From Smithella sp. (GTDB lineage: Bacteria; Desulfobacterota; Syntrophia; Syntrophales; Smithellaceae): a stretch of DNA of 33,915 nt. The translations under genes and the position numbers were made by a program. The stretch is taken from assembly GCA_012510495.1 (NCBI GenBank), contig JAAZHX010000157.1, positions 1-33,915 on the forward strand, in the 5' to 3' direction. Of the stretch, positions 7,068-9,352 are shown in pieces (the stretch's first letter is position 1; each line of letters begins with the position of its first letter). The notes under the pieces are model-generated. The model had not been told where the DNA came from and ran no database searches. It was given only the letters and a program-made list of their open reading frames with translations.

Positions 7068-7229
7068 AAACCTTCTTCCCGATTCCTGAAGGCCTCTATC
7101 ATTCAAGCGCTTAATTTTCAAGCTAAAAACACTTGTCACCGGCGGGAAGGAATTTTTCTTCTTTACAGTTCCGTATTATTTCGTTACATAGACGCCCCAA
7201 TAAATACTGACGACAAACTGGTGCCTGCC

Positions 7230-8822
7230 ATGCATTCTGAAACGACATTTCCCATGTCCCGGGCTATCCTTGGCGCCTATGCCGAAGGGCAGGAAGACGA
7301 AACGCTGCTCCCTCTGGTGGGGGTCAATTCTCAGCAGGCGCCCCTGGGAAGAATCCAGCCTGGCGATTCGATCATCTTTTATAATATCCGCGGCGAGCGC
7401 GAAATTGAACTGAGCCGCAGTTTCACGGAAGAAAACTTTCGGGAATTCCCCGTTCATCCCGGACTTCCCGTACACTTCACCACCATGATCGAGTATTCGA
7501 AAAACCTGAACACCCGGGTCGCTTTTCCGCCCCGGGACGTTCTTTCCGATACCTTAAGCGACATCATCGCGGCGCACAGCCTTAAGCAGACAAAAATAAC
7601 TGAGGCGGAGAAAGCCGTTCATATCAGTTATTTCTTCAACGGGAAGAAAAACGATCCGCTGCCGAAAGAAGAACGAATCGTTGTCCCGACGCGCAAGGAT
7701 GTCAGACTGTTCGACGAAGCGCCCGAAATGTCCATTGATGAAATTTCCCGCGCGGCTGCGGCCAGAATTCAGGATCCGTCCTGTCATTTCATCGTCGTCA
7801 ATTTCCCGAATGTGGACGTCGTCGGCCATATTGAAAACGAACCGGCGATCCTCCGGGCGGTTTCGGCGGTGGACCGGAGCGCCGGAGCGCTGTTGGAGCA
7901 GGCGCTGCAGCAGAATATAACCGTCATCGTCACCGCCGATCACGGCACGGTGGAAAAATGGCTGTATCCGGACGGGGGAGTGGATACCGGACATACGGAC
8001 AGTCCCGTGCCTTTCATTCTTTTGCACCCGGATCAAAAACTGACGTTGAAATCCGAAGGAGAACTGACCGACATCGCGCCGACGATTCTGGAGTTGCTGG
8101 GCCTGCCCGTCCCTTCTGCCATGACCGGCTCGTCTCTGATTCAAAAAAAGCCTTCTTCTTTCGCCCCCGTATCTCGTCTGCTCCTGCTCATTTTGGACGG
8201 CTGGGGCCTTGGTGAAAACACGAAGGGCAACCTGATCGCCCGCGCCCAAACCCCGGTAATGGACCGGCTGCTCCGGGATTTCCCTCATGCGCGGCTGGCC
8301 GCCTCCGGATTAGCCGTGGGGCTTCCCGCCGGGAGCGTGGGCAATTCCGAGGCCGGGCACCTGCACATCGGGGCGGGGCGGCGGATTTATTCCGACCGTC
8401 TGCTGATCGATCAGGCGATTGCCCGGAAGGAATTTCACCAAAACCCGGCTTTTTTGCGCGCCATGAACCTGGCCATCCAAAACCGCCGCGCGTTGCACCT
8501 CATGGGCATCGTGTCTTTTTTCAGCTCGCATGGGTCCATCGAACATCTGTTTGCTCTGATGGAAATGGCCGGGCAGCAAGGGGTTTCCGAATTGTATATT
8601 CACGCCATGCTGGGACGGCGCGGCGAACAGGCCGAAAGCGGCGCGCGCTACATCCGGCAGGTGGAGGAAAAATGCCGGTCGCTGGGGCTGGGACAGGTGG
8701 TGTCCGTGATCGGACGATACTGGTCGATGGACCGCGAAGAGAACTGGGACCGGATCGAAAAAACCTACCGGATGCTGGTTTACGGAGAGGGAACCCCGGT
8801 CGCCGCGGAGGGAGAATCGTGA
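7230..8822 (+). CDS. Phosphoglycerate mutase (BPG-independent type), circularly permuted
   Basis: The enzyme family interconverts 3- and 2-phosphoglycerate using two Mn ions and a phosphoserine. All parts of a normal iPGM are present in 530 residues, but in swapped order. Residues 1-300 match the usual C-terminal half (SIIFYNIRGERE, NVDVVGH, TADHGT, HTDSPVPF, APTILELLGL, MTGSSLI). Residues 313-530 match the usual N-terminal half (LLLLILDGWGLGE, VGNSEAGHLHIGAGR with the catalytic Ser near 373, IGRYWSMDREENWDR, LVYGEG). The break falls in the segment between YGEG and the AYAEG-like helix. Metal ligands and most substrate residues are kept, but the usual LDGRD loop reads LGRRG and SDGGVHSH reads SFFSSHGS. 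I chose ATG 7230; GTG 7221 is possible and neither has a good ribosome site. It overlaps the macro-domain gene by four bases. Confidence 0.88.
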   Translation: MHSETTFPMSRAILGAYAEGQEDETLLPLVGVNSQQAPLGRIQPGDSIIFYNIRGEREIELSRSFTEENFREFPVHPGLPVHFTTMIEYSKNLNTRVAFPPRDVLSDTLSDIIAAHSLKQTKITEAEKAVHISYFFNGKKNDPLPKEERIVVPTRKDVRLFDEAPEMSIDEISRAAAARIQDPSCHFIVVNFPNVDVVGHIENEPAILRAVSAVDRSAGALLEQALQQNITVIVTADHGTVEKWLYPDGGVDTGHTDSPVPFILLHPDQKLTLKSEGELTDIAPTILELLGLPVPSAMTGSSLIQKKPSSFAPVSRLLLLILDGWGLGENTKGNLIARAQTPVMDRLLRDFPHARLAASGLAVGLPAGSVGNSEAGHLHIGAGRRIYSDRLLIDQAIARKEFHQNPAFLRAMNLAIQNRRALHLMGIVSFFSSHGSIEHLFALMEMAGQQGVSELYIHAMLGRRGEQAESGARYIRQVEEKCRSLGLGQVVSVIGRYWSMDREENWDRIEKTYRMLVYGEGTPVAAEGES

Positions 8823-9352
8823 AAATCACCGTGAATCAAACCGTTATCGAACTCGACTGCGGAGACATTACGGAGGAAACAACCGATGCCGTCGTCAACG
8901 CCGCCAACAGCCGCCTGGCGGGCGGCGCGGGCGTGGACGGGGCGATTCACCGCGCCGGCGGCCCCGCCATCATGGCCGAATGTCGTAAAATCGGAGGCTG
9001 TCCAACCGGTGAAGCCGTCATCACTACAGGCGGCAACCTCAAGAGCCGCTGGGTCATCCATGCCGTCGGCCCCGTGTACCGCGGCGGAGGACGAGGCGAA
9101 GCGGGCCTGCTGGTCTCGGCGTATCAAAACAGCCTGAACCTGGCCTGCAAGAAAGGCCTCGCCAGTCTCTCCTTTCCGGCCATCAGCTGCGGAGCTTACG
9201 GATACCCCCTCGGGGAAGCCGCCTCCCTGGCGCTCTCAACCTGCGTCACGTTCGCGCAAAGCCATCCGGAGCTTCGGCTCATCCGCCATGTTTTATTTGA
9301 CCGGCAAACCTACGACGTTTTCGCGCAGGAGTTGAAAAAAATAATGCCCTGA
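8819..9352 (+). CDS. Macro-domain protein (ADP-ribose/O-acetyl-ADP-ribose deacetylase type)
   Basis: The 177-residue single-domain protein reads GDITEETTDAVVNAANSRL near residue 14, AGGAGVDGAIHRAGG, then FPAISCGAYGYP and the terminal strand LIRHVLFD. This pattern matches the MacroD/YmdB class, which binds ADP-ribose and removes acetyl or ADP-ribosyl groups. The Asn-Ala-Ala-Asn and GVDGAI loops that form the active site are intact. GTG 8819 is the start: it overlaps the mutase stop as GTGA and the conserved domain begins at once. The frame is also open upstream inside the mutase gene, but that part has no homology I recognise. The overlap points to coupled translation with the permuted mutase; a shared metabolic role is only an inference. 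Confidence 0.92.
   Translation: MKITVNQTVIELDCGDITEETTDAVVNAANSRLAGGAGVDGAIHRAGGPAIMAECRKIGGCPTGEAVITTGGNLKSRWVIHAVGPVYRGGGRGEAGLLVSAYQNSLNLACKKGLASLSFPAISCGAYGYPLGEAASLALSTCVTFAQSHPELRLIRHVLFDRQTYDVFAQELKKIMP

Follow-up and report, generated by a model that had tools for sequence, protein, structure and literature searches.

The window, a 33,915-nt stretch of contig JAAZHX010000157.1 from Smithella sp., carries a gene whose product matches BPG-independent phosphoglycerate mutase (iPGM) with the two halves of the chain in exchanged positions. The locus raises the question of whether this order is genuine and, if so, whether the enzyme catalyzes the housekeeping reaction on 3-PG/2-PG. We consider it rather probable that the protein is a natural circularly permuted member of the iPGM/alkaline-phosphatase superfamily, a metal-dependent Ser-phosphoenzyme mutase of single origin whose role is probably not housekeeping. 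The permuted order is real and widespread, and it comes with a pocket specific to its clade.

Reading frame and order of the domains

The uninterrupted open reading frame extends on the forward strand from a GTG at 7221 to the end of the stop codon at 8822 and encodes 533 aa. The initial annotation had placed the gene at 7230-8822, but the frame opens upstream of 7230. The ATG at 7230 is the next in-frame start after the GTG and the ATG at 7254 is another, and the true start may be any of the three.

A phmmer search of the PDB aligned the protein with 1EJJ in two blocks, with residues 16-309 corresponding to 1EJJ 220-511 and residues 320-525 corresponding to 1EJJ 6-211 (i-Evalues 6.9e-59 and 8.5e-58). 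The permutation cut lies inside 1EJJ 212-219, eight residues whose counterparts are the tails at the new N- and C-termini. The best stretch for the Pfam Metalloenzyme model was protein residues 102-295, and positions 1-131 of the Pfam iPGM_N model matched residues 396-526. In a genome profile search, iPGM_N positions 135-217 were located at 7251-7502, near the N-terminus of the protein. The chain order of bacterial iPGM, namely phosphatase-N, phosphotransferase, and phosphatase-C, is not that of the window protein, in which the blocks are reversed. In consequence, the phosphatase core is contiguous, whereas the phosphotransferase domain is divided between both ends of the chain.

The first piece of the phosphotransferase domain (7254-7550, outer bounds approximate; all parts are on the forward strand) contains the motif FYNIRGER, which includes R261 and R264 of 1EJJ. 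The C-terminal part of the phosphatase core (7524-8147, start approximate) includes the Metalloenzyme match from residue 102, ends at residue 309, the equivalent of 1EJJ 511, and carries the equivalents of K336, D403, H407, D444, H445, and H462. The gap between the aligned blocks is a ten-residue linker (8148-8177, protein residues 310-319), which links what were originally the C- and N-termini. It is followed by the N-terminal part of the phosphatase core (8178-8405, end approximate) with ILDGWG (D12) and VGNSEAGH, the latter containing the nucleophile S62, which is residue 373 of the 530-aa form. In the second piece of the phosphotransferase domain (8406-8798), the clade signatures GIVSFFSSHG and MLGRRGE replace the SDGGVHS-type and DGRD loops.

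The motifs on which the initial annotation was based (NVDVVGH, TADHGT, HTDSPVP, ILDGWG, and VGNSEAGH) were all found in the protein. Its claim that the C-terminal half of iPGM precedes the N-terminal half was borne out by the 1EJJ blocks and by the Pfam, NCBIfam, and genome searches. The break point that it proposed, with nothing obviously lost, agreed with the blocks covering 1EJJ 6-211 and 220-511, and these blocks together with the Pfam matches also bore out its contiguous core and split phosphotransferase domain.

The NCBIfam model TIGR01307 scored 460 bits in two stretches of the window protein against its cut-off of 330.65, and therefore the iPGM match is not due to chance; the ordinary gpmI that this genome also carries scored 429.4 bits. 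The model NF003897 (cut-off 862) missed both the permuted protein (383.9) and the ordinary gpmI (364.8), so this miss was not counted against iPGM membership. Like bacterial iPGM (GpmI/GpmM; TIGR01307; 1EJJ and 1O98 from B. stearothermophilus), the permuted protein has both domains with nearly full coverage, the seven metal and nucleophile residues, and eight of the nine substrate residues, but it differs in its rotated chain, its two altered loops, and its separate clade. Archaeal-type iPGM (apgM; PF10143, TIGR00306, PRK04135, PRK04200/TIGR02535) shares the metal-binding core of the superfamily, and TIGR00306 gave 34.5 bits on the window protein; in contrast, this type has about 400 aa, a phosphotransferase domain described by PF10143, and the normal order, and it occurs alongside the permuted gene in most genomes tested. 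Phosphopentomutase DeoB belongs to the same superfamily, but the best phosphopentomutase model reached only 31.7 bits against a cut-off of 254. A precedent for a permuted phosphomutase is PGM3 of the alpha-D-phosphohexomutases, for which passages of PMC5570346 describe a permutation involving about 60 residues that leaves the phosphoserine loop at its position in three dimensions; however, its fold is unrelated, and a segment was moved within one domain instead of the whole protein being rotated.

The structure predicted by AlphaFold2 from an alignment of 50 permuted proteins had a pLDDT of 91.6 and a pTM of 0.86. Foldseek returned 22 PDB matches at E <= 0.001, all of which were phosphoglycerate mutases of the iPGM kind, as expected for the iPGM fold. 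Each covered roughly half of the chain, over 225-316 columns with a TMq of no more than 0.51; 4my4, for example, gave 266 columns, 1.7 A, and a TMq of 0.48. This fits a permutation, because an aligner that follows chain order is limited to one half of a permuted protein. The second half alone, predicted without an alignment, had a pLDDT of 48.7 and was set aside. The permuted chain is predicted to fold into the ordinary two-domain iPGM shape.

Recurrence and origin of the permuted gene

Since the genome of the window is a 332-contig assembly with 6.56% contamination, the exchanged order might be an artifact of assembly, or the gene a pseudogene. However, the same order recurs in many genomes, as the initial annotation had proposed to check. 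Most of the protein was matched in one piece in 35 of the 59 relatives, with the genome of the window counted, and by fragments in two more (G042 and G018). In the class, 50 of 108 genomes contained the full-length permuted gene, and another six contained it in partial, split, or fragmentary form: on two contigs in G100, as partial matches in G082 and G075, as two matches in one 685-aa frame in G118, and as C-terminal fragments in G077 and G079. The gene was present in 16 of the 394 genomes of the phylum sample, once as two pieces in a single frame, and in 2/400 and 20/396 genomes of the samples from two other phyla, with the center genome counted each time. All 80 loci from the named genomes, which were the best 80 of 234 relatives, were permuted. 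The order was also present in G072, which is listed as a single 3.2-Mb contig.

The dN/dS values were 0.13-0.24 in 15 pairs among six related permuted genes, and the gene is under purifying selection, which speaks against a pseudogene. Adjacent separate genes of normal order that together make up the permuted protein were seen in none of the relatives, class genomes, phylum samples, or named loci. Judged from the assemblies, neither of the two outcomes that the initial annotation had named against itself, misassembly or such a gene pair in relatives, was encountered. Based on this recurrence and on the purifying selection, a misassembly or pseudogene was rejected as far as assemblies show, and we regard it as extremely improbable.

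The titles of the best 80 of 234 relatives named Smithella, Syntrophus, and Syntrophaceae (Syntrophales-type), Aminicenantes, Chloroflexota/Anaerolineae, Zixibacteria, Stahlbacteria, WOR-3, Neomarinimicrobiota, Armatimonadetes, and others, a list of phyla that is indicative, as it rests on MAG titles, which can err. A tree of 99 sequences was built with a quick method from 53 sequences out of a set of 90 distinct permuted ones, 45 ordinary sequences, and 1EJJ. The permuted sequences, after rotation, formed one side of a branch with an SH-aLRT of 100. The permuted order is common to one clade that is present under several phylum names, and the permutation would have arisen once and early. The tandem duplication and outer-half loss proposed in the initial annotation are a plausible putative route, of which no intermediate was seen.

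No published account of a permuted iPGM was found in the portion of the open-access result lists that was examined, in which the permutation papers concerned glutathione synthetase, Rossmann-type folds, SGNH hydrolases, PGM3, and GH70. The survey of 702 genomes by Foster et al. (2010; PMC2964296) describes iPGM paralogs as rare and assigns three archaeal-type iPGMs to Syntrophus aciditrophicus, and the string "permut" is absent from its main text.

Pocket residues and conventional mutases in the same genomes

The residues D12, S62, D403, H407, D444, H445, and H462 in 1EJJ numbering, which we take to be the two-metal site and the nucleophile, were kept in all 106 distinct permuted proteins mapped on 1EJJ. 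Nine iPGM residues contacting the reactants are named in passages of PMC3886921, namely S62, H123, R153, D154, R185, R191, R261, R264, and K336. In addition to S62, the residues H123, R153, R185, R191, R261, R264, and K336 were invariant in the 106 permuted proteins, which thus kept eight of the nine contacts, and D154 was replaced by Gly in every one of them. This exchange is part of the signature GRRGE, in which D151 is changed to Gly, G152 to Arg, and D154 to Gly, with Glu at position 155 (106/106). In contrast, DGRD, with Asp at position 154, was found in 55 of 55 ordinary-order proteins, a set made up mostly of the best matches to permuted queries and thus not random; Glu at position 155 alone occurred in three of them. 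The SDGGVHS-type loop, which is somewhat variable among the ordinary proteins, is changed to S(F/H)(F/Y)SSHG in the permuted clade. The residue census was made after leaving out 40 loci that lacked an iPGM-like frame of at least 300 aa (other-mutase loci, L172, and L239). One gene, represented by L053 and L106, was permuted and carried GRRGE, with the metal motif NVDVVAH in place of NVDVVGH and both D and H kept.

No ordinary-order gene with GRRGE and no permuted gene with DGRD was found among the 55 and 106 distinct proteins, respectively. Chain order and pocket are coupled in that the swapped order always occurred with GRRGE among the proteins examined. Because the metal residues, the nucleophile, and eight contact residues are kept, the serine-phosphoenzyme chemistry should be intact, and two pocket loops on the phosphotransferase side differ in a fixed way.

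An ordinary gpmI, which the initial annotation had proposed to look for, was found elsewhere in the genome of the window. It encodes 581 aa and is 32% identical to the permuted protein over either block. This gene (L001; G000:C116:40439-42025) shares a long branch with L165 and L173, away from the remaining ordinary iPGMs. The genome also contains an archaeal-type homologue classed as A-type (TIGR02535/PRK04200). At another locus, L163:880-3416 (reverse strand), a PF10143 gene of the A-type, matched by TIGR02535 (proposed homoserine kinase) and by PRK04200, adjoins a homoserine dehydrogenase gene.

Co-occurrence was analyzed in the 108 class genomes, which were at least 90% complete. B-type apgM was defined by PF10143 matches of about 147-165 bits, and NCBIfam was run on five examples, four of A-type and one of B-type. 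An ordinary gpmI, B-type apgM, or gpmA was present in 53 of the 56 genomes with the permuted gene, including G077 and G079 counted on fragments, and in 48 of the 52 genomes without it (Fisher p 0.71), where incompleteness makes absences unsure. Ordinary gpmI and B-type apgM/gpmA were nearly mutually exclusive, with an overlap in 2 of 41 gpmI genomes (Fisher p 9e-20; by genus p 3.7e-8); since the genomes are related to each other, these p-values overstate independence. On this circumstantial evidence, the permuted gene looks like an addition to the conventional mutases and not a replacement, because a conventional mutase was about equally present with and without it. Three class genomes (G013, G044, and G084) had the permuted gene without ordinary gpmI, B-type apgM, or gpmA, and all three carried an A-type form.

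In the genomes of the named loci L130-L162, the permuted gene was present in 33 of 33, ordinary gpmI in 3, an archaeal-type match in 31, and gpmA in 1. Of the 31 genomes, 30 were typed at one archaeal-type locus each, with 22 assigned to B, 7 to A, and 1 left undecided, and 26 of the 33 genomes showed B-type apgM, ordinary gpmI, or gpmA. The remaining seven comprised four with untyped or fragmentary further matches (G499, G503, G512, and G524), the undecided G528, and G523 and G527, which showed none. At E 1e-20, G523 had no ordinary gpmI, PF10143 match, or gpmA; G527 had an A-type match only. Genomes without a conventional mutase weakly favor the view that the permuted protein is an isozyme. 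Two phosphoglycerate mutases co-occur in E. coli, according to passages of PMC2964296, and therefore redundancy proves nothing about the substrate of the permuted protein.

Proposed function and gene neighborhood

The initial annotation had called the protein an iPGM. Its family assignment stood, with the TIGR01307 score, the metal site, the nucleophile, and eight of nine contacts on its side, but the reaction that it implies is less certain given the replaced D154 and the conventional mutase that is usually also present. We strongly infer the catalytic class, a metal-dependent Ser-phosphoenzyme mutase. In the proposed mechanism, the two-metal site would activate the serine equivalent to S62, which would accept the phosphate of a small phosphorylated carboxylate; this substrate would then turn in the cleft and regain the phosphate on another oxygen. 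The housekeeping pair 3-PG/2-PG is probably not the physiological substrate, or at least not the main one, because no member retains D154 and the gene accompanies a conventional mutase without taking its place.

That the permuted proteins form a distinct enzyme family from one ancient permutation, moving phosphate on a metabolite other than 3-PG/2-PG, is in our estimate an evenly balanced proposition. The retained eight of nine substrate residues would suit 3-PG well and speak against a different substrate. Together with the TIGR01307 score above the cut-off, they argue for a true second phosphoglycerate mutase acting on 3-PG/2-PG, in which GRRGE (R152 and E155) would replace the role of D154; E155 in particular might take over this role. 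The genomes G013, G044, and G084, as well as G523 and G527, point in the same direction, but some of them may be incomplete, and all except G523 carry an A-type homologue, which PRK04200 also names a mutase. Moreover, D154 is replaced throughout the clade, and the ordinary forms displace one another, whereas the permuted gene displaces none. We therefore hold a second phosphoglycerate mutase to be possible but somewhat doubtful. The invariant metal and nucleophile residues combined with two changed phosphotransferase-domain loops could also be read as a phosphatase, or as a phosphotransferase to another acceptor, in which the phosphate would not be returned to the same molecule without D154. 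The seven further contact residues kept in all permuted proteins are more than a plain phosphatase seems to need, and this activity appears improbable to us.

If the reading of a separate family with its own substrate is correct, glycolysis reconstructions in several phyla would include a gene that does not belong there, pathway annotations would be in error for many uncultured anaerobes, and a further reaction would await discovery. Because its score exceeds the curated gpmI cut-off, the protein would be named an ordinary phosphoglycerate mutase by annotation pipelines. The old permutation of single origin, with the same pocket change in every case examined, would also be a natural experiment on chain order and the domain hinge in a two-domain mutase.

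The neighboring genes were clustered for 79 of the 80 named loci (L106 was left out), and 20 hand-picked neighbors were analyzed with Pfam. No metabolic context common across clades was found in these data, and the neighbors were clade-specific. A scan for promoters and terminators around the permuted gene gave nothing above chance. In the window, a Macro-domain gene (8819-9352, forward strand; Pfam Macro) lies directly downstream, with an inferred GTG start at 8819 and an apparent overlap with the stop codon of the permuted gene, and a similar gene follows the permuted gene in 37 of the 79 clustered loci. Transporter-like downstream genes, as judged by eye, were common to ten loci, of which nine carry Aminicenantes titles and one an Acidobacteria title. 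Two Chloroflexota loci had a histidine phosphatase gene (PF00300) directly downstream, at L132:6554-7177 and L134:6566-7189.
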